DNA of 64,000 bases from Planctomycetota bacterium (lineage in GTDB: Bacteria > Planctomycetota > MHYJ01 > JACQXL01 > JACQZI01). Both the position numbers and the translations under genes were made by a program. Within the stretch, counting starts at the first letter, position 1. Every line of letters starts with the position of its first letter. This document shows, one piece after another, positions 20,936 through 54,308 of this stretch. The stretch covers positions 62,001 through 126,000 of the forward strand of contig JACQZI010000005.1 of assembly GCA_016207825.1 (NCBI GenBank), read 5' to 3'. The notes beneath the pieces were generated by a model, which did no database searches, was not told the DNA's origin, and saw only the letters and a list, made by a program, of their open reading frames with translations.

Positions 20936-21171
20936 GAATTAATTCGTTATGACTTTAGCACTGATGTTACATTAATGTATATAAAGAGAAAGAAACAAGC
21001 GTAAACTAAACGCCCCTCATTCGCCTAATCTACGGTGCTTTTCACTTCAATCTTGACAAAGCGGTTTTTGATGATTCAGTAGAATACAATATAATACACT
21101 TTCAGCCTTAAAGAATAAATATATTCGTTTTCGCTCAGGGGGGTACTGCCCCCCACCCCTTAATTACATCC

Positions 21172-21479
21172 CCCCGGCCTATAAGATACTTCTCCCCGGT
21201 CTATAATCTACCTCTCCCCGGCCTATAATATACATGCCCCCGGTCTACAATCTACCTCTCCCCGGTCCATAGTATACAGGTCCTCGGCCTATAATATTTA
21301 TCTCCCCCGTCTATAGTATACATGCCCCCCTCCTATAATATTCTTCTCCCCCATCCATAATACTTATTCCCCCGGTCTATGATATACTTCTCTCCCGCCT
21401 ATAAGATACCTCTCCCCGGCCTACAATATACTTCTCCCCGGTCTACAGTATACATCTCCCCCGTCTATAATATACATGG
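21172..21479. repeat. Array A: fourteen tandem 22-bp units with a CTATAATATAC core
   Basis: Fourteen units follow one another with an exact 22-bp period and no indels. Each starts with a C-run (CCCCGG in most), has a TATAATATA-like core and a pyrimidine-rich end (CTTCT or CATCT). Units differ from each other by 2 to 8 bases, mostly transitions, so the array is old yet keeps its register. There are no spacers, so this is not CRISPR. The 22-bp length is about two helical turns, as in plasmid iterons. It lies between the divergent promoters of rluD and the Zn-ribbon membrane gene at 21689. Confidence 0.93.
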
Positions 21480-21652
21480 GCCGGGTGGATAAAGTTAATG
21501 AGGAGTAATTTAAAAACAGTTAATAGGGACAGCCTTATATGTCAACAAAATTAAGGGTTTTGAGGCGTGGGATGTCCCTATAGTCCGAATCTGTCCCCAG
21601 TGCCCAACCGCTCAATGGGTTTTCCTCGCGTGACTTTTAATCCGCTTATAAT

Positions 21653-45065: not shown

Positions 45066-45839
45066 TTAAGATTTGAAAACCTGGATGTCCAGATAGAGCA
45101 AGGTATTTTCTAACACAAAATCCACCCTGGCCGCCAAGCCGTCCAGAAGGTATTCGCTTACTAATTGATTAGTTAAGGCGTTTTCGTCCGCAATGATGAA
45201 CGGGGCAAAGCCGTATTTAACTATCCTCGCTCCAGCCTGCCTGATGCGGTTTATCAGCCTTTGCCTGAATTCGCCTGCCCGCTCAGGTTGTGTGATTAAT
45301 ACCGGCCCGCCTTCTATTCCGTAATCACCGGGCTTGGTAAGCTTTAGGGCCTCCGGGTTTCCGGAGAGCCACCGCGCCGCAAACGGCGCTATTCCCCTAA
45401 TCTTATTGCCATACCCGGTAAAAGGCAGGCTTGTCCGCGCTATCTTTAAGGCGGATTGGTATGACTGGCTTTCTATGGATTCATTAAATCTTTTGTTTTC
45501 TTCCCCATCCACTTTTTCAAAAGCCTGCTCAATCTTGCCTTTATATTTGTTATAGCCAGCGGGCATATTGCTAATCATGCTATTAATAATACTCTCGTAT
45601 GTCCGGCCGCTCCTGGTGCGGTAATTCGGATTAAAGAACTCAATCTTGTCCTTGATATTATGATTCGCCATCTTTTGGGCGTAGTCTCCTAAGCCGGAAA
45701 TGGAATTCTTGATATTTTCCCCCATCTTCGTTCCGGCATTTAGCATAGATTGTTTCCATTTTTCCAGATACTCCGCGGGCGGCTCTGATGGTATATCCAC
45801 CTTCGCCTTAATCCTTGATATTACCTTTTCGTCTTCCAT
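45066..45839 (-). CDS. Island paralogue P1, unrecognised family
   Basis: 257 residues from ATG 45839 (a GGAGGGAGGG site precedes it; an upstream frame from 45881 overlaps the conserved element). It is soluble and mostly helical at first, with no signal peptide. It is a diverged homologue of the last 263 residues of the 52551-54308 protein: YRTRSGRTYESI against YRSKSGKTYDKM; FEKVDGEENKRF against FESVDGVTAKRF; the stretch ending GDYGIEGGPVLI against DTGIIGGPYRVC; and RLINRIRQAGARIV against ALMNRLVQAGMVIF. I know no function. It is read outward from the island, away from the restriction-modification genes. Confidence 0.65.
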   Translation of the reverse strand: MEDEKVISRIKAKVDIPSEPPAEYLEKWKQSMLNAGTKMGENIKNSISGLGDYAQKMANHNIKDKIEFFNPNYRTRSGRTYESIINSMISNMPAGYNKYKGKIEQAFEKVDGEENKRFNESIESQSYQSALKIARTSLPFTGYGNKIRGIAPFAARWLSGNPEALKLTKPGDYGIEGGPVLITQPERAGEFRQRLINRIRQAGARIVKYGFAPFIIADENALTNQLVSEYLLDGLAARVDFVLENTLLYLDIQVFKS

Positions 45840-45846
45840 ATCTTCA

Positions 45847-45895
45847 CCCTCCCTCCATAAGTACATGCAGGAGTGGGGCAAATGTCACAGGAAAA
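45847..45895 (-). promoter_or_regulatory. Conserved 46-nt element upstream of P1 (left copy)
   Basis: On the minus strand it reads TTTCCTGTGACATT then GCCCCACTCCTGC, ATGTACTTATGGAGGGAG. The plus-strand copy at 52145-52194 is identical except for one base in 46. The TGTGACATT and ATGTACTTAT blocks are about 17 bp apart, as -35 and -10 elements of an ECF promoter might be. It could also be an inverted repeat used in recombination. Confidence 0.7.
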
Positions 45896-45995
45896 ATTGA
45901 AATTAGATAAAAATTTCGCTCAAACTCAATATAAGCGGGTTTCAAGGTGCACCTAGGGGGAGGGGGGTAGATTCCGACACTGTTCTAAAAATCCA

Positions 45996-46281
45996 CCTCT
46001 CACGTGCCAAAAAAACGCCGTATACGTGCCAAAAAATTGCCTCTCACGTGCCAAAAAAATGCCTCAGACGTGCGAAAAATTTACCTCTGGCGTGCCAAAA
46101 AAAGGCCTCAGTCGTGCGAAAAATTTACCTCTCACGTGTTTAAAAAATGCCTTGGACGTGCTTAAAATTTGCCTCTGATGTGCCAAAAAAATGCCTTAGA
46201 TGTGCCAAAAACTCGCCTCTCATGTGCCAAAAAAACATCTCAGCTGTGCGAAAAATCCACCTCAGATGCGCGAAAAAATAT
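45996..46281. repeat. Array B: thirteen tandem 22-bp units with CACGTGCC and an A-tract
   Basis: Thirteen units with an exact 22-bp period: the GTG of each unit falls at 46004, 46026, 46048 and so on to 46246, then a variant at 46268. The typical unit is CCTCTCACGTGCC followed by five to seven A. Units differ at several positions but never in length. The A-tracts come every 22 bp, about two helical turns, so intrinsic curvature is likely. The array lies between P1's upstream element and the island's 3' end. Confidence 0.93.
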
Positions 46282-46367
46282 AGGTGGGGGAATTTTGAAA
46301 AATGTCAAAAACAACCAAAGCCACAGATTACAGTGCAAAGCCTCTTGTAGGGGCAGAATAATCTAAT

Positions 46368-46844
46368 TTATTTTATTCTGCCGAGTTTACGCCATCTGCT
46401 TAGCCAATTATGTGACCAGTAATATTTACCGGTTGCATCCCTGACAAAAGCGACATATTTATCAGAAGATAATTTTTCTTTTTCTTTCAGCTGGTCTTCA
46501 TCCATATAAAAGTCTTTAGATTTTCCCTCGGTTAATTCAACTTCTTTACTTAAATTCTGTGTTTCAACTAGATCATTTCCGCCTAAATTTTTAGGCTGTC
46601 GCAACCCCGCTTCTTTAAGTGTTACCGGTCTACGGCCTTTATTAACCACCAAAATCCTTATCATGTTTTTCCTTGTAATTGAGTTGGTAGGACTTGATTC
46701 ATACACCTGTTTAACACTAACTTTTATGCTTGCTTTATCCCTACGATATTCAAATATCTTAAAAACAGCTAATATTGTTGATAACGCAGCTCCCCAAATA
46801 GCTAATATTTCGATTAATTTTAATGAGTTTATAAAATCTTTCAT
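46368..46844 (-). CDS. Small membrane-anchored protein, unrecognised
   Basis: 158 residues. One N-terminal helix (LIEILAIWGAALSTILAVFK) and a globular domain with RRDKASIKVSVKQVYE, IRILVVNKGRRPVTLKEAGL and a hydrophilic tail. The pattern is common in accessory islands; I do not know a function. The gene follows the zinc-finger gene by 33 bp, with a CACAGAG repeat between them. Confidence 0.55.
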   Translation of the reverse strand: MKDFINSLKLIEILAIWGAALSTILAVFKIFEYRRDKASIKVSVKQVYESSPTNSITRKNMIRILVVNKGRRPVTLKEAGLRQPKNLGGNDLVETQNLSKEVELTEGKSKDFYMDEDQLKEKEKLSSDKYVAFVRDATGKYYWSHNWLSRWRKLGRIK

Positions 46845-46877
46845 CCGTGTTCTCTGTGTCCTCCGTGGTAAATATAT

Positions 46878-47384
46878 TTACACCCTATGAACCTGTTCAT
46901 TCTCCGTGATGTTAATCCATTCTTTGCAGACAAGCCAGCCGATTGCGTCATGCAGGTCATCCGAAGGCAGTTTGGACTTGGTTTCCAGTTCCGGCAAAGG
47001 CATGGGCTTGCCGTTTTCCGGCAGGTAGCTGTAAATCATATCGGCGTGTTTAACTATTTTTACAACGAATGGCGACGGCTTTTTGGCGGCGAAAGAGCCT
47101 TTTTTCAGGAGGGCAACCAGGTCTTCCTTTTTCTTCTGGAATTCCGGGGTCTTGCTGTATTCCTCGGTTACGGATGTCGCGTAAATATTCTCGTAATCCT
47201 TAAACGCCTGGCGGCATGGGGCGCAGTCAACCAAATGGCGCAGGACTTCTTCCCGCCTTTCCTTGCCGACAAAAGCGCTTTCGCCTGTGGCGAGGTCAAC
47301 GATATCCAGGCTGTATTGCTCGCATCCGCCTAACGGCGAGGCGGGTTCCGGGTTCAATCCTTGTTTAGCTTTTTTAGGTTCCAT
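46878..47384 (-). CDS. Zinc-finger (anti-sigma-like) and winged-helix protein
   Basis: 168 residues. The N-terminal part has a zinc-binding motif of the anti-sigma type, LRHLVDCAPCRQAFKDYENI (HxxxCxxC), preceded by a CEQY motif. The C-terminal part (about 110 to 165: MIYSYLPENGKPMPLPELET, then LPSDDLHDAIGWLVCKEW) looks like the DUF2582 winged helix. The gene overlaps the sigma-like gene by 31 bp and has its own ribosome site (AAGGAG), so it is likely its partner. Unlike classical anti-sigma factors it has no membrane helix. Confidence 0.6.
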   Translation of the reverse strand: MEPKKAKQGLNPEPASPLGGCEQYSLDIVDLATGESAFVGKERREEVLRHLVDCAPCRQAFKDYENIYATSVTEEYSKTPEFQKKKEDLVALLKKGSFAAKKPSPFVVKIVKHADMIYSYLPENGKPMPLPELETKSKLPSDDLHDAIGWLVCKEWINITENEQVHRV

Positions 47385-48004
47385 AAAATCTCGCTCCTTA
47401 TTGATTTTAATATTCTACAATATCGCATCCTTAATTGTCCAGATTTATTTGGCTCGCCCTTCTCATTAAACCTGAACTCATCGTATTCAAGTATAGCGGC
47501 ATAGGAATTATTTTGCTTTAATAAAAACAGTTTCCGGTCTAAGGATTCGAGCTTATTTATCGCCTGATTCATCAGCTTAATCATCATTTCTTTTTGCGGA
47601 TTATCACTGCTTGGTTCGGGTATCCGCGCCATCGGGTCTTCGGTAAAGGTTTCCAGGTATTCCTTATCAAGCCCGTGTTCCGCATGTCCATAACGGCGGT
47701 TTTCCGTAAAGGCGATTTTCTTGGCGATATCGAATATCCAGTTTTTGAATGAGCCTGCCTGCGCCGGTGCTTCGGCAGGCAGGCCAGGATATCTTGGCCC
47801 AAATTTATCGTTTTTTAGAAGCTTGCAGATGGTAAAGAAAGTGATTTGGATAAGGTCGTCAATAAAGGATTTATCCTTGTAGTTACTGTTATTAATGAGG
47901 ACGCCCCAGACGGGCTTGTAATAGCGGCCGACGAGGATATCCATCGCAGAATCGTTCCCGTCACCGTAGGAAAGGGCAAGCGTTTCGTCGGATTGAGTAC
48001 CCAT
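47354..48004 (-). CDS. ECF-like RNA polymerase sigma factor of the island
   Basis: 216 residues. Region 2 is recognisable at about 25 to 110: RYYKPVWGVLINNSNYKDKS, IDDLIQITFFTICKLL and FKNWIFDIAKKIAFTENRR. Region 4 is degenerate (AINKLESLDRKLFLLKQNNS, YAAILEYDEFRFNE ... LRMRYCRILKSIRSEI). An insert GPRYPGLPAEAPAQAGS between region 2.2 and 2.3 is encoded by a GC-rich palindrome at 47753-47784. It is the likely regulator of the conserved element upstream of P1 and P2, by location only. An anti-sigma-like gene overlaps it downstream. Confidence 0.65.
   Translation of the reverse strand: MGTQSDETLALSYGDGNDSAMDILVGRYYKPVWGVLINNSNYKDKSFIDDLIQITFFTICKLLKNDKFGPRYPGLPAEAPAQAGSFKNWIFDIAKKIAFTENRRYGHAEHGLDKEYLETFTEDPMARIPEPSSDNPQKEMMIKLMNQAINKLESLDRKLFLLKQNNSYAAILEYDEFRFNEKGEPNKSGQLRMRYCRILKSIRSEILWNLKKLNKD
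47753..47784. repeat. Palindromic repeat inside the sigma factor gene
   Basis: GCCTGCCTGC and GCAGGCAGGC pair around GCCGGTGCTTCG. It encodes GLPAEAPAQAG on the minus strand, in frame with the sigma factor. Confidence 0.75.
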
Positions 48005-48142
48005 ATTTTTTCACCACAAAGGCACAAAGAAAAACTATTTATCCTTGGACTTGTCCTGAGTTCCATCGAAGGGGTTTTCCGTATTATCCGAACCGGAGTC
48101 GGGTTTCTTGTCCGGGCTATCTTTGGTCTTATCGGTATCTGA

Positions 48143-48304
48143 TTAACCAAGAGAATCTTTTTTGGTGTTTTCCTTTGGTGCTTGAGCTTTTGGTGGTTCT
48201 GGCCTTGGAGTTTGAGGTCGGGTATTTACGCCCCCTTTTTTTATCATCCCTTCTTTAAGTAACCCGAATTTAATTGTTTCATCTTTCTTTTTGTCTTCTG
48301 TCAT
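48143..48304 (-). CDS. Small hydrophilic protein, 53 residues
   Basis: A ribosome site (GGAGGTG) in the end of the upstream gene precedes ATG 48304. The product starts MTEDKKKDETIKFGLLKEG, is basic and proline-rich (RPQTPRPEPPKAQAP) and ends at TAA 48145-48143. The same frame stays open for another 35 charged codons (SDTDKTKDSPDKK and so on) to a TAG near 48040, so the stop may be a nonsense mutation in a longer gene. Function unknown. Confidence 0.5.
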   Translation of the reverse strand: MTEDKKKDETIKFGLLKEGMIKKGGVNTRPQTPRPEPPKAQAPKENTKKDSLG

Positions 48305-48305
48305 T

Positions 48306-48938
48306 TTAATTCACCTCCATTTTAGTAATTTCAAGCCGCATATCCTCTTTATTTATGGGCAAGTATAAAACATTGATATTATACATTTCTTGAGCGGTAG
48401 AGTTTTTATATACTTTGACATCCGATAAGCAAATTTCATCGTTTTTGTCTGTGCTATCTGAATATGCTAAAACCCAACCTTCATACATAAGGTCGTTTTT
48501 TACATCTCTAATTACTACCCATCCAATTTCGGGTTGGTTCATAAGATTACTCCAGACGTCAGCTTCACCCATTTTATTGGATGCTTTTATAAAATGAGCA
48601 AAGCGATATAATATTTTATAAGTAATTGAATATGTAAATATAAAGCCCACGAAAATCGAAAGGATTGCTACTATAAAGATTTCAGTTAAATCTAAAGGAA
48701 TTGTCTTATTTAAAAGAGACTCTATAAATTTAAATTTAAGCTCGATGCCTGTTAGAGTTACAAGCTTTACGATGGGATAGTATAGCAAATAACAAATGAA
48801 GCCTAATAATAAAGAAAGAGAAAATAACTGATAACTTTTAAATTCTTTGTGTGGCACTAGTTTGTCAATTATAAATAATGATATTATACCCGGCATGAAG
48901 AGCAGGATAATTCTTAATGTAAATTCTGATAATTCCAT
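48306..48938 (-). CDS. Membrane protein resembling DUF6338
   Basis: 210 residues. Three N-terminal helices (LRIILLFMPGIISLFIIDKL, YQLFSLSLLLGFICYLLYY, EIFIVAILSIFVGFIFTYSI) then a cytosolic domain with WVVIRDVKNDLMYEGWVLAYS and EICLSDVKVY. The phrase YEGWVLAYS ... EICLSDVKVY is shared with DUF6338 proteins. The biochemical role is unknown to me. Such genes are frequent in accessory islands. Confidence 0.55.
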   Translation of the reverse strand: MELSEFTLRIILLFMPGIISLFIIDKLVPHKEFKSYQLFSLSLLLGFICYLLYYPIVKLVTLTGIELKFKFIESLLNKTIPLDLTEIFIVAILSIFVGFIFTYSITYKILYRFAHFIKASNKMGEADVWSNLMNQPEIGWVVIRDVKNDLMYEGWVLAYSDSTDKNDEICLSDVKVYKNSTAQEMYNINVLYLPINKEDMRLEITKMEVN

Positions 48939-48965
48939 AAAGCACCTTTCTTATAACAATAGGGC

Positions 48966-49289
48966 TTAGTTTCCGGTTTGTATATCTTCTTCAGACGCGG
49001 GTAATTTAGTCCACGCCGACTTTAGGGTTTGTATAACAAATTGAATAGAAACCCCGATTACAACTATGCTTGCTACAACAATATATTGTCTCCATAATTC
49101 GGGAAGTTTTTTCTCGTCACCCCAAAATGCTGCCATTAGAAGGTCCACACCGGCAGGAATCGAAAAATATGCCAGAAAAACGAGAACAGTATTGATAATA
49201 TTCCATGTTCGTTGTCGAAATAGCTGGATTATTACAAAGACAAATACGCCACCAATCCCTGCCATAATCCCTAACGCCGTTGTATCCAT
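48966..49289 (-). CDS. Small multi-pass membrane protein
   Basis: 107 residues with three predicted helices (IMAGIGGVFVFVIIQLF, INTVLVFLAYFSIPAGVDLL, YIVVASIVVIGVSIQFVIQ) and a polar C-terminus. Its start codon shares one base with the stop of the 49289-49534 gene, so they form a pair. No family recognised. Confidence 0.55.
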   Translation of the reverse strand: MDTTALGIMAGIGGVFVFVIIQLFRQRTWNIINTVLVFLAYFSIPAGVDLLMAAFWGDEKKLPELWRQYIVVASIVVIGVSIQFVIQTLKSAWTKLPASEEDIQTGN

Positions 49290-49534
49290 TATTTATCTAA
49301 TCCTTTAGCTTCGCTTCCAAGTATTGCTCCAAAAATTCCTCCGACTATTGCGCCGATTGGCCCCCCAATTGATGCGCCAAGAAGAGCCCCTCCGATAAGT
49401 CCTACAGCTGCTGAATTTTCTCCGCTTTTAGGTGAACCAAGAGGTTTCCTGCAATTGTAACAAGCATAAGAAGATGCCTTGCAATTGTCAGGAATTTCAT
49501 TTTGTCTGCCACATTTTGGGCATTGAATGTTCAC
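49289..49534 (-). CDS. Zinc-ribbon and glycine-zipper membrane protein
   Basis: 81 residues. The N-terminus is a zinc ribbon (CPKCGRQ ... YACYNCRK), and the C-terminus is a Gly-rich hydrophobic segment with repeated GxxxG (LIGGALLGASIGGPIGAIVG then GIFGAILG). Glycine zippers mediate helix packing and can form oligomers or pores. A role in membrane damage or stress response is a guess. It lies in the restriction-modification operon. Confidence 0.6.
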   Translation of the reverse strand: MNIQCPKCGRQNEIPDNCKASSYACYNCRKPLGSPKSGENSAAVGLIGGALLGASIGGPIGAIVGGIFGAILGSEAKGLDK

Positions 49535-49559
49535 GATATTATCCTTTTAATAATTATTT

Positions 49560-50516
49560 TTATAGCTTGACCAACCAATTACATAATGAATTAACCTGGA
49601 CCTGATTAGTTAAATTTGCGGCATTTGTTAATATCCCGTCTTTTAACTGTTCCCAAATTTCCGTAGACATTTTCTTTTCAATAGCCGCTCCGATAAAGAA
49701 TGTGTATAGACGAGGATTTATTTTGGAAAACGATTTCCTAATCCGTGACAATGCGGTATTGGCGGTTTTCCAGTGTTCATCTGCGCCGGCCGGGTCAATC
49801 CCGCCTTTTAATTCCCCGCAGGAAATATACATGCCGGGCTTTTTGTAGGCGACGGGAACTTTCCCATAATCACAATTTAACAGGCAAAAATCTATATTAT
49901 TTTTAACTACGGGCGGAGTCAGGTTGAAAAGGGCGGTTCTTTTCGCTCCTTTTCGTTTCCAGCTAATTCCTCTCAAGAACAATTCTATATCCGCGTCATC
50001 ATCGTTTGCTTTAACCCAGGTCTTGCTCTTGGAATTCAGCCAGTAATATGTGGTTTTGGTGATTGAAAGGGCAGAAATGATGGCGCGGGCGAATTTCCTC
50101 TGTCCGAGAACGCCTCCCACATTACGCATACTGCCGCCCAAGGTATCACCTTTGGTCAATAGAAACCTGTAAACCAGTTCTTCCACAAAATTTGCCCCGG
50201 CAGGTTCAAGGAAATTCTTCACTAACCCTTTTATTGCCTCGGTTTTATCGTTTTCCTCCAAATGACCGCTCGCTTTATCCGACACCCCGGCCGCGCATAA
50301 TAATGCGGAACGGATTTCCCTGATATTAAGCAGGTCTTTTGGAGTTTCAGCGGAAGAGGCAAATGATTTCAAGGAGCGGGCTTGTTCAATAAAAGGAGTG
50401 GCGCGCCGATTTCTTTCCAATGCCAGAGAGACAAAACCGGCCCGGGTGGCTTCATAAGTCGTAATCAACTTTTGACTGCCTGATAAATGTTTCAAATACG
50501 GTTTGCTTAACGGCAT
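49560..50516 (-). CDS. Type II restriction endonuclease of the BsoBI/AvaI type
   Basis: 318 residues from ATG 50516, whose A overlaps the methyltransferase stop (TAATG). A longer frame from 50543 lies inside that gene. The stretch SCGELKGGIDPAGADEHWKT carries the Glu-Lys of the PD-(D/E)xK active site and matches the signature of BsoBI and AvaI. NNIDFCLLNCDYG upstream would give the Asp. The known members cut CYCGRG; the specificity here is inferred from the family. The N-terminal helical part is also consistent. Confidence 0.85.
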   Translation of the reverse strand: MPLSKPYLKHLSGSQKLITTYEATRAGFVSLALERNRRATPFIEQARSLKSFASSAETPKDLLNIREIRSALLCAAGVSDKASGHLEENDKTEAIKGLVKNFLEPAGANFVEELVYRFLLTKGDTLGGSMRNVGGVLGQRKFARAIISALSITKTTYYWLNSKSKTWVKANDDDADIELFLRGISWKRKGAKRTALFNLTPPVVKNNIDFCLLNCDYGKVPVAYKKPGMYISCGELKGGIDPAGADEHWKTANTALSRIRKSFSKINPRLYTFFIGAAIEKKMSTEIWEQLKDGILTNAANLTNQVQVNSLCNWLVKL

Positions 50517-51988
50517 TAGGCTTTCCTCCATACATATATGCACTTTCGCAAGGAAACACGTCCGTGTTTGCCCATTTGCTGACTGCTGTTCCCTTTGCCA
50601 TTGGGTAATACCAAAATGTTTTCAATCCTAAACCCTAATTCCTCGGCGATTTTGGATAATATCGTATCCACCGATATGCTTACACCGGCATAGCGCACAT
50701 TGTCGTTGACCATAAACATTAAGCCGTTTGGTTTTAATACGCGTAAGCACTCGCTGATAACACAAGCCATTTCGTAGAAGTAACCGCGAATCATCCGCGG
50801 TATCCCCGAATTATTGAGGACCCCCATATTTTTCTGGTCATCTAAATACTTGAGTATAGATTGCAATAATTCCTGCCGGTCAGTTATTTCCATCGCCTGA
50901 GCCCATTTTGGATTGATGTGCAAGAGGTCTTTGGCGCGGTTCTCGACCGTGCAACTAAGCATTTGTTGCCTTAAATCCCGTATCTCATCTTCGGTCGTCC
51001 CGAGCATGGCTAATTCCAATGCGTATGTTCTGGTATAATCATACCGGTTGCAATATGGAGGAGAGGTAATAATCGCGTTGTATGTATTCTTGGGGAGTTC
51101 GGGCAGGACGTTTAAACAGGAGCCTTTAAAGTGATTAATATTCCCCTGCAGAGGCTTTTTGTCGAAAGAAAGGCTTAGGTTCCTTTCATAGATATCATTG
51201 ATAATCTCATTGATTTTAGAGGACGTTGCCTGGGTAAAAGTTGGAATATTTCCCTTATTAAATGCTTTGCCTCCCAGCTGGCGACCAGACCGTATATCCC
51301 AACGAAGACATTGTCCGTCTTTACGGGTATAACTAATTGATTCCAGGACGCATAATAACGCGAATTGCAGGATAATTTGTATTTTTGGCTCTTCCTTAGA
51401 TATCGACGCCAAATATTGTTCAATGGCATTAAGCGTATTTGGAGAATATGCCCCGTCCGTAATTTTTATTTTATTCAAAGGAATGGTTTTAGCCGACTTT
51501 GCCCATGGTTTCTCGTCGCTCCAGCGTTTAAGAATGGCTATGTCTTTAGAGGTTAGCCCGTTCCCTAAATACCGTTTTGCGGAAATAATCCGGTGACAAA
51601 AGGGAAGCAATTCGATTCCATCGGCATCTAATCCTGATTGGCTCGCGGCGAACAAAGCCGTGCCGCTTCCGGCAAACGGGTCAAGTATTTTACCGGAGAT
51701 ATGATATTTTGATAGCAGGTATTCCACTAAAGAAGCGGAGAAAGCCTCTTTGAATTTATACCAACGATAAGCTGGTCTTGTTTTATTAGCCTGAAAACTG
51801 ACATGTTGACGTGTTAAAACCGATTGAGATAAAAACTTACTGTGAAAATGCTGCGATAGGTTAGAATCAAGATTATTAATTTCTTGTATCGTATCAGGCT
51901 GTTTTAATGAGAAATTCGGAGTATATAAGGCGAGTTCTTCCTTAATTTTTAATGGTCGTTTAGACTTGGCTTTAAGTTTAGTCGTCAT
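50516..51988 (-). CDS. DNA methyltransferase (N4-cytosine or N6-adenine type)
   Basis: 490 residues from ATG 51988; an in-frame TTG at 52003 is also possible. The SAM-binding motif ILDPFAGSGTALFAASQSGL is near residue 103, and the catalytic TSPPYCNRYDYTRTY near residue 308. DPFAGSGT comes before TSPPY, the order opposite to that of beta-class enzymes. SPPY suggests N4-cytosine. It overlaps the BsoBI-type endonuclease and presumably protects CYCGRG-like sites. Last motif LMFMVNDNVRYAG is also visible. Confidence 0.9.
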   Translation of the reverse strand: MTTKLKAKSKRPLKIKEELALYTPNFSLKQPDTIQEINNLDSNLSQHFHSKFLSQSVLTRQHVSFQANKTRPAYRWYKFKEAFSASLVEYLLSKYHISGKILDPFAGSGTALFAASQSGLDADGIELLPFCHRIISAKRYLGNGLTSKDIAILKRWSDEKPWAKSAKTIPLNKIKITDGAYSPNTLNAIEQYLASISKEEPKIQIILQFALLCVLESISYTRKDGQCLRWDIRSGRQLGGKAFNKGNIPTFTQATSSKINEIINDIYERNLSLSFDKKPLQGNINHFKGSCLNVLPELPKNTYNAIITSPPYCNRYDYTRTYALELAMLGTTEDEIRDLRQQMLSCTVENRAKDLLHINPKWAQAMEITDRQELLQSILKYLDDQKNMGVLNNSGIPRMIRGYFYEMACVISECLRVLKPNGLMFMVNDNVRYAGVSISVDTILSKIAEELGFRIENILVLPNGKGNSSQQMGKHGRVSLRKCIYVWRKA

Positions 51989-52144
51989 ATAGTTGATATC
52001 CAAGTAATTCTAAAACACCTTATTAATGCCACCAATTATATCTTGTTTCCGGTGATAGTCAAGTGAAATCCCTTTTAGTGTTTGTTTTCCTTTTATCCAT
52101 TTCCGCCAATATAAATCGTAACTATTTTCACCATTTTCCAAAGA

Positions 52145-52194
52145 TTTCCTGTGACATTCGCCCCACTCCTGCATGTACTTATGGAGGGAGAGGG
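52145..52194 (+). promoter_or_regulatory. Conserved 46-nt element upstream of the P2 operon (right copy)
   Basis: Inverted copy of 45847-45895, identical over 46 bp except one base, just upstream of the P2 genes. In this copy the ATG of the element would open an 18-residue leader peptide that ends at a TAA inside the ribosome site of the 52234 gene. That short frame is probably incidental. The sequence from 52004 to 52144 holds nothing else that I can identify. Confidence 0.7.
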
Positions 52195-52233
52195 GAAGAA
52201 AACCCCTGAGACCCCTTCAAGGAGGATAAAGAT

Positions 52234-52554
52234 ATGAAAAGGAATGAACAAATAACGGATGAACCAAGAACCAATTGCAAGGAATGCCATAAACCGTTAC
52301 CGAACGGTAACAGCCTGGTTTCCCAAACCGCCCGAACCCTGGGCTATTGCCGGTATTGCTATCTGGGCAATTTTCCGCAAAGGAACCGGTCAAGAGGCCC
52401 GGCTTTGAGGTCAAGCTCTGGTGGCTTACTTTCCAGTTATGAACGGGTATTTCTGGAAAAGGCTGGGTTTAATACGGAACTGTGGTCTCCGGAATTCAGG
52501 GAAGAGATGCTGGATTACTGGAGAGCCAGAGAAAGGAAAGAGGTGAATGTATGA
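52234..52554 (+). CDS. Small Zn-ribbon protein of the P2 operon
   Basis: 106 residues with two CxxC knuckles (CKECHKPL and CRYCYLG), an Arg/Ser-rich linker and a helical tail ending YWRARERKEVNV. The ribosome site AAGGAGG precedes the ATG by 10 bp. It overlaps the protease gene (ATGA at 52551). The zinc ribbon hints at nucleic acid or protein binding; I know no family. Confidence 0.6.
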   Translation: MKRNEQITDEPRTNCKECHKPLPNGNSLVSQTARTLGYCRYCYLGNFPQRNRSRGPALRSSSGGLLSSYERVFLEKAGFNTELWSPEFREEMLDYWRARERKEVNV

Positions 52555-54308
52555 GAAACCAAGTTATAAGTTATAAGTTTCAAGTTATTAGGTTGCTCAT
52601 CCTGTTAGTTCTAGGAATTGCGTTAATAGGCTTAACGGCGCGGGCGACCAAGCCAATGGAGATGCCGCCGGATGTGATTATCATCAGGCCTATGGATAAG
52701 GCTAACAATCCTTATCAACGGGAATATGATGAAATGCTCAAACCTGTTGTCATGATTACGGCATTATCAGGCAGAGGAACTGGCGTAATCATTCCAGGTT
52801 CATTGGTTCATCAGTCCACCGGCTCATTAGCTAATGAACAATTGAACAATTCAACAAATGAACTATACATCTTAACAGCGGCTCATGTAGTCGGGAATTA
52901 TTCAACAGTTACCGTTACTGTTTACGCTCCTCTTTGTGAACTTAGTGCCTTTGTGGTGATGACTGATACAAATAAGGATCTTGCGCTTCTTAAAATACGA
53001 GATTGCTTCGCTAACGCTCGCAATGACAAAACGGCACGGTTGGCTCCAAGCGATTATACATATTATCTGTTTACCCCGGTGTATGTTGTCGGATGTTCAT
53101 TAGGCTTAAATCCCAGGCCATCCTCCGGCATTATCAGTTCCATTAGCGCCTTTGCTGTGGAGATTACCGCACCTGTATTACCAGGCAACTCAGGAGGTCC
53201 CGTCTATGATGCGGGCACGCATGAGTTAATCGGTATAGCCGTTTGGGTTCGGCTTTACGGAGACCAGCTTATTACCACAATGGCAGGTGTCGTCCCAATC
53301 TCGGAAATCTACGTTTTCCTTGAAAGTTACAAGTTACAGGTTACGAGTTTCGAGTTAGAAGATGAAACTTATAACTTGCAACCTGAAACTTATTTCTTAA
53401 CTGCCGATGAGCCGGTGATTGGTGATGTACACACTAATCAGGGAGACCGGCTTGTCAGCCTAACCAAAAGACCCCGCACCGCGATGGGTTCGGGGCTTAG
53501 AAGGGAGGTGAATAACATGGGAATCGTATCAAAAGTGGATCTATGGATACCAGCGAACGTGCCACCTTCTCCGGATATGGAACAGAAGTGGAATGACGTT
53601 TTGCAGACCGTTGCGACGCTCATTAATGACCGCCGCAATGCCAAGATACCCGATGAAGCGGCTTTCCAGAACAAGGTTGTGGAAGCCTCTAATCAGGCAT
53701 GGGCAAACGTAATCAGCTCTACCTATCGTTCCAAAAGTGGCAAGACCTACGACAAGATGAAGAACGCGCATGACGCAAACCTTCAGCAGTCGTATAACCA
53801 GTGGAACGAGAAGCTCAACCGGATGTTCGAGTCGGTTGACGGCGTCACCGCCAAGCGGTTCAAGGACATAGTTTCTTTTGCCAAGAAATTCTGGACAGAG
53901 ACCGTCGGCAAGGGCGTCTTAAGGCTGACCGGAGATAAGGTGCGCGGACAAGGGGCGGCGACCATTGCGACTTATTGGCTCACAGGCGAGCCGATGGCCG
54001 CAGGTATGGTGCGCCCCCAGGATACCGGGATAATCGGTGGTCCGTATCGGGTTTGCAGGATTGAACTCGTCCAGGCTCTGAAAGCAGCGCTGATGAACAG
54101 GCTGGTTCAGGCAGGCATGGTGATTTTCAATTCCCAACTCTCGATGCCGATAATCACCGAGGAAAACACGACTACCAATACGCTGATACAGGGTTTTATT
54201 GACCCGGCGTTAGGATTGGAATCGTTTACTCCCGGCGGCGCGTCTCACCTTGACTTTGTCAAGCAGGGCGCGTTACTCAAGCTTTCGCTCCAGGTATCGC
54301 AAGTGTAA
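52551..54308 (+). CDS. Secreted trypsin-like protease fused to island paralogue P2
   Basis: 585 residues from ATG 52551, after a GAGGTG site. A signal/anchor segment (LLILLVLGIALIGLTARA) leads to a trypsin-like domain: His in ILTAAHVVGN, Asp in DLALLKIRD and Ser in LPGNSGGPVYD. About residues 259 to 283 are encoded by a palindromic AGTTACAGGTTACGAG-type repeat. Then, at residue 323, an internal ATG (53517) stands behind a strong ribosome site (GGGAGGTG) and starts a 263-residue stretch homologous to P1. The last part may therefore also be made alone, as P1 is. The fusion could be caused by the repeat removing a stop. P2 function unknown. Confidence 0.75.
   Translation: MRNQVISYKFQVIRLLILLVLGIALIGLTARATKPMEMPPDVIIIRPMDKANNPYQREYDEMLKPVVMITALSGRGTGVIIPGSLVHQSTGSLANEQLNNSTNELYILTAAHVVGNYSTVTVTVYAPLCELSAFVVMTDTNKDLALLKIRDCFANARNDKTARLAPSDYTYYLFTPVYVVGCSLGLNPRPSSGIISSISAFAVEITAPVLPGNSGGPVYDAGTHELIGIAVWVRLYGDQLITTMAGVVPISEIYVFLESYKLQVTSFELEDETYNLQPETYFLTADEPVIGDVHTNQGDRLVSLTKRPRTAMGSGLRREVNNMGIVSKVDLWIPANVPPSPDMEQKWNDVLQTVATLINDRRNAKIPDEAAFQNKVVEASNQAWANVISSTYRSKSGKTYDKMKNAHDANLQQSYNQWNEKLNRMFESVDGVTAKRFKDIVSFAKKFWTETVGKGVLRLTGDKVRGQGAATIATYWLTGEPMAAGMVRPQDTGIIGGPYRVCRIELVQALKAALMNRLVQAGMVIFNSQLSMPIITEENTTTNTLIQGFIDPALGLESFTPGGASHLDFVKQGALLKLSLQVSQV
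53325..53400. repeat. Palindromic repeat inside the protease-P2 gene
   Basis: AGTTACAAGTTACAGGTTACG pattern on one side and AACTTATAACTTGCAACC on the other, the same family as 562-628. It is translated in frame between protease and P2 domains. A half copy at 52560-52596 encodes part of the signal region. Confidence 0.6.

Follow-up and report, generated by a model that had tools for sequence, protein, structure and literature searches.

A 64-kb stretch of DNA (hereafter, the window) from an uncultured groundwater member of the Planctomycetota (G000; 2.89 Mb in 42 contigs, with related Brocadiia MAGs) contains two paralogous genes of a family denoted P here, which face away from each other and belong to operons preceded by nearly identical 46-nt elements. 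What is this element, and what ties the two genes together? P1 (45066-45839, minus strand) encodes a 257-aa protein assigned to the family by protein matches in its own genome, and P2 (53517-54308, plus strand) occupies the end of a longer open frame. The match of P1 at C5:115547-116296 (30% identity, E 2.4e-27) confirms that P1 is homologous to the C-terminal part of the 52551-54308 frame, as the first-pass annotation had proposed.

This frame probably comprises two genes, a protease and P2, with no stop codon between them, because P2 has a Shine-Dalgarno sequence and an ATG of its own at 53517 (gggaggtgaataacATG); in the sister loci L068, L073, L078, L086 and L088, the protease and P are encoded in separate frames. 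The upstream part (52551-53516, plus strand), which runs into P2 without a stop, encodes a membrane-anchored trypsin-like protease (PF13365, 1e-15) in which the H, D and S motifs (TAAHVVG, DLALLKI and GNSGGP) can be read. Word-like repeats occur within the joint frame (window positions 52560-52590, 52798-52863 and 53325-53400; YKFQV..., SLVHQSTGSLANEQLNNSTNE and YKLQVTSFELEDETYNLQPETYF) and resemble small elements inserted in coding sequence; the second of these is also found in L095.

The two copies of the element (45849-45894 on the minus strand and 52145-52190 on the plus strand) are 46 nt long, identical at 45 of the 46 positions, inverted and 6250 nt apart, with no third copy in the 64-kb window and none in shuffled sequences. 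The annotation had both copies preceding P genes, and they do lie upstream of both P operons, but the arrangement differs: the minus copy ends 9 nt before the ATG of P1, whereas the plus copy lies 44 nt upstream of a gene for a small Cys-rich protein (52234-52554, plus strand; 106 aa) that begins the Cys-rich/protease/P2 operon, and not directly upstream of P2. In the layout of the element, a T-rich tract is followed by TGTNAC, ~20-24 nt of spacer, and TATGGAGGG, which leads into the start region. Two other identities were considered and rejected: the element has no Rfam match to a known RNA, and a coding remnant on the opposite strand (SLHKYMQEWGKCHRK) is contradicted by a stop in that frame in the L022 copy, as judged by reading.

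The P family turned out to be far larger than the pair in the window. Searches of the G000 genome yield 39 matches with P1 and 53 with P2; ~34 P genes are full-length or nearly so, and the remaining matches are 3'-end fragments. The family is present in six of the nine genomes from the host order (2 to ~30 copies in those besides G000) but was detected neither in the 14 genomes that represent the class outside this order nor in the 17 that represent the phylum outside this class; the named relatives come from Planctomycetota MAGs, Candidatus Brocadiia among them. P was not assignable to a known family, having no Pfam, NCBIfam or PHROG match and no PDB relative by sequence, and no member was found in viral contigs. 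The AlphaFold2 model of P2 is confident (pLDDT 88, pTM 0.69) and consists of long helical hairpins with N- and C-terminal strands; Foldseek finds no match to it at E < 0.001 in PDB or BFVD, and the best VIA-align score (Z 6.3) reflects the helical hairpins only, so that the fold search is not decisive. A dispersed repeat of ~370 bp (~18 copies, among them L080:3554-3976, L083:3025-3447, L102:3559-3984, L087:3215-3623 and L106:3241-3480) is fused in frame to differing 3' ends of P genes at the FTPGGASH codons. This pattern looks like the outcome of recombination that swapped the P bodies and left locus-specific tails behind.

The abundance of P genes bears directly on the initial reading of the locus as a composite defense or stress island, with P1 and P2 at its borders and an inducible outward output. 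Between the two genes, all on the minus strand, lie genes for a small membrane protein with no clear family (46368-46844), an anti-sigma-like protein (46878-47384), an ECF-like sigma factor (47354-48004), a DUF6338-like membrane protein identified by domain search (48306-48938), a BsoBI-type restriction endonuclease (49560-50543; PF09194, 3e-149) and a type II DNA methyltransferase (50516-52003; PADLOC MTase_II, 7e-159). The last two form a type II restriction-modification (R-M) system of the BsoBI type (49560-52003), exactly as annotated. The location of this pair between P1 and P2 fits a defense island, as does the presence of methyltransferase genes near a small number of further P loci (3 of the 282 flanking genes by motif, compared with 0 of 439 background genes; by eye, next to L153 and L095). 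However, the ~34 P loci almost always lack R-M genes; the equivalent interval of the sister locus on C10 (L078) is occupied by completely different genes, namely, cobalt/nickel transport and NikR-like ones (named by reading); in L024 and L096, nothing separates the sigma operon from the P operon; and PADLOC detects no system beyond R-M and generic protease matches. Copy number and context therefore largely refute the island reading, and we give it very little credence. The inner genes of the window, that is, the R-M pair and those for the DUF6338-like and small membrane proteins, look like cargo that lies outside the module.

What does recur, according to the neighbor profiles, is a pair of sigma and anti-sigma genes that diverges from an operon made up of the genes for the Cys-rich small protein (also found in the P operons of L024, L078, L095, L096, L151, L209 and L214), the trypsin-like protease and P. 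Many loci in G003 and G007, which represent other genera of the order, additionally encode a fibre-like decapeptide-repeat protein directly 3' of P (L149:4297-5307, L152:2151-3194, L158:9001-10095 and L215:4621-5763), which is found in none of the G000 P loci examined. Because the neighbors include a protease, a Cys-rich protein and, in the relatives, a fibre-like protein, the module might build or regulate something at the cell envelope, and an envelope- or fibre-associated role of P is our guess from this context.

The fibre-like partner also lends some color to the possibility that P genes are spread by a virus-like or transposon-like selfish element, of which the P loci would be units or remnants. 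Such an origin would be compatible with 2 to ~34 copies per genome in a single order, with recent duplicates (82-86% identity) and 3'-end fragments, and with the many copies located at contig ends. Yet the neighbor clusters show no recurrent gene for a transposase, an integrase or a phage structural protein; viral contigs, PHROGs and viral folds contain no match to P; and most P frames are intact, often with a terminator-like sequence behind them. Taken together, these observations make a selfish origin rather improbable. The repeats in the fibre-like proteins (AVTTDKIADG) do resemble those of phage tail fibres and are encoded directly downstream of P, but unlike in tail-fibre systems, the vicinity of P includes no other phage structural genes that would indicate a prophage or tailocin (PHROGs and neighbor clusters), the protease and sigma being the only PHROG matches of note, and the G000 loci examined lack the fibre gene altogether.

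The distribution of the element within the genome is more telling. Searches of the entire G000 genome with the element classes A, B and D (defined below) reveal nine clear places: two on C5, two in tandem at C7:101.6k, and one each at C27:65.5k, C10:135.8k, C17:78.3k, C17:22.3k and C23:171.3k. All nine lie on the coding strand in regions upstream of P operons, and these searches never found the element elsewhere in G000. A weight matrix derived from six sites assigns scores above the shuffle maximum of 13.5 to two sites outside the training set (28 bits for L090:2844 and 19 bits for L024:4769), both, again, upstream of P operons. Thus, to the question of whether the element is local or spread over the genome as in a regulon, the answer is a dispersed set of sites in front of P operons, and the impression that it is functional and conserved beyond the genes is borne out. 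The majority of the G000 P loci have no recognizable element, and the motif was not recognized in G003 and G007, so that, if a promoter, it is lineage-specific. At some P loci, promoter-like elements come in tandem pairs (L022:5590 and 5677; L089:3164 and ~3390); the L089 pair combines two classes (C and D), as if two sigma factors were in control.

The sigma genes show the same attachment to P. The window sigma gene is one of four related genes in G000, every one of them in a P locus (the window, L024, L078 and L096), and its matches to TIGR02937 (E 1e-5) and PRK12513 (1e-12) are both below the curated cut-offs. The anti-sigma-like protein, with a weakly zf-HC2-like N-terminus and a winged-helix-like C-terminus, is weak in domain search but strong by its recurrence next to sigma in the four G000 loci. 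The pair is found also in L200 and L215, where it is likewise divergent from the P operon; the anti-sigma-like protein has a Cys-containing N-terminus and, in the relatives, TPR. A sigma gene alone is present at the fifth G003:C3 locus. The suggestion that the sigma and anti-sigma genes belong with the P genes is well supported by these four loci and those in the relatives.

Pairwise comparison sorts the elements into four classes. Class A includes the elements of P1, P2, L022 and L023 (82-92% identity), class B those of L078, which has a sigma gene, and L090a (83%), class C those of L024, with a sigma gene, and L089a (73%; a weak grouping, p 0.02), and class D those of L096, with a sigma gene, and L089b (70%), whereas identity between classes is mostly 50-67%. 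In each class, the element of one sigma locus is joined by that of one or more P loci that lack a sigma gene. The class of an element follows the sigma gene rather than the P gene: the P gene on C10 is the closest to P2 (82-86% identity) but has a class B element and a sigma gene of its own, whereas P1, only ~30% identical to P2, shares class A with it. Although the pairings are few and were noticed post hoc, this structure suggests cognate sigma-promoter pairs with targets both in cis and in trans.

Accordingly worded as a model, the favored reading, which we consider probable, is that the 46-nt element is a promoter with a ribosome-binding leader that serves a dedicated ECF-type sigma factor, with P-family operons as the targets. 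The number of P genes, the distribution and classes of the element and the gene neighborhoods are observed; promoter activity, sigma-promoter pairing and the envelope role are inferred. The window sigma (47354-48004) would drive the class A elements upstream of P operons, and the sigma/anti-sigma pairs of the four P loci would each have a promoter class of their own, which would extend to one or two P loci devoid of a sigma gene. A single sigma would thus control both P1 and P2 in cis and, through the class A elements on C7 and C27, additional operons in trans. P1 and P2 belong to a large multicopy module that is specific to the order and seems to be governed by private sigma factors.

Could the element instead be mainly a unit of recombination or a mobile repeat, i.e. 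a gene-conversion tract or a small dispersed repeat that sits upstream of P as a piece of a copied module and is not a promoter? The abrupt 46-nt boundaries, the 45/46 identity despite ~30% identity of the proteins, the tandem copies at L022 and the fusion of different dispersed repeats to the ends of P genes are all in line with such an explanation. It is, however, at odds with the confinement of the element to P operons, always on the coding strand, with the correspondence between element classes and sigma loci, and with the retention of TGTNAC and TATGGAGGG-like blocks in diverged copies, and appears unlikely as the main explanation. A contribution of recent gene conversion or copying to the identity of the elements is nevertheless probable, because the identity spans the spacer, which is not demanded by a promoter alone.

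The promoter reading has a natural reference in ECF sigma/anti-sigma regulons. The window shares with these a sigma gene that overlaps the downstream anti-sigma-like gene, a divergent target operon and a conserved two-block promoter-like element, a motif common to the target operons of classes A-D. The differences are that four related sigmas each seem to own one promoter class and that all targets found belong to one gene family. Furthermore, no element lies directly upstream of any of the four sigma genes, so that autoregulation, in contrast to ECF regulons, is not seen.

A further component of many P loci is a tandem array, a feature absent from the first-pass annotation. Directly upstream of the P1 element (~45901-46300), ~14-16 imperfect units with a 22-bp period form alternating 44-bp pairs, and comparable arrays are found at window positions 21071-21550 and in L079, L099, L025, L074, L204 and L205. 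The arrays are typically 350-400 bp long (range 233-543; 10-26 units), with a unit that differs at each locus, and number dozens per genome in the host order, at other intergenic sites as well. The period is exactly 22 bp and does not drift: in 10 of 11 arrays, identity at lag 22 is 0.54-0.79 compared with 0.13-0.42 at neighboring lags; the eleventh repeats at 44. The array ends are often G/C-rich (GGGTAGGGGGGTA-like). Of the 32 P genes that could be tested, 13 have an array within 1 kb on the upstream side, compared with 1 of 31 on the downstream side. The share expected from the array density on the host contigs C5 and C7 (446 kb) is 2.2% (binomial 7e-14, or 2e-11 without two near-duplicates). 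For G003, where the density was taken from 380 kb, the upstream counts are 7 of 17 within 1 kb and 13 of 17 within 4.2 kb, with none downstream. On C5 and C7, about two-thirds of the arrays are not close to any P gene, and no arrays were detected in 449 kb of genomes that lack P (G004, G015, G036 and G024; same-order G004 contributes only 57 kb).

These arrays contain no spacer blocks (the longest run of near-random columns is 0-2 at period 22 or 44), which excludes guide arrays such as CRISPR or TIGR, and their dyad symmetry is, overall, not above that of shuffled sequences (5/44), which speaks against dyad operators. The arrays resemble plasmid iterons, which are likewise direct repeats of ~20-22 bp that keep phase with the helix and precede a gene, but differ in being chromosomal, present in dozens per genome and locus-specific in sequence, and in adjoining a gene with no Rep match. 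TIGR-Tas arrays (PMC12045711) are similar in that tandem arrays, some with alternating pairs, lie beside a gene and are fixed in sequence within a locus but different between loci; they differ in having spacer blocks and a Nop domain partner, whereas P has no Nop or Cas match in Pfam, the fold search without matches not being decisive on this point. Nothing relevant to the 22-bp arrays or the P module was found in the literature. As a tentative idea, a P gene and its upstream array could form the functional unit of an undescribed multicopy system, in which the P protein, or a regulator encoded in its operon, would recognize the array of its own locus, built of helically phased units of strictly 22 bp, such that loci are self-addressed and the arrays, together with the cognate sigmas, govern expression or exchange.

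With ~35 loci per 2.9-Mb genome for one uncharacterized family, private sigma factors and locus-specific arrays of fixed length, the P module points to an unrecognized surface, variation or self-recognition system in uncultured Planctomycetota. If the P products do recognize their arrays, an order of Planctomycetota would carry dozens of self-addressed loci.
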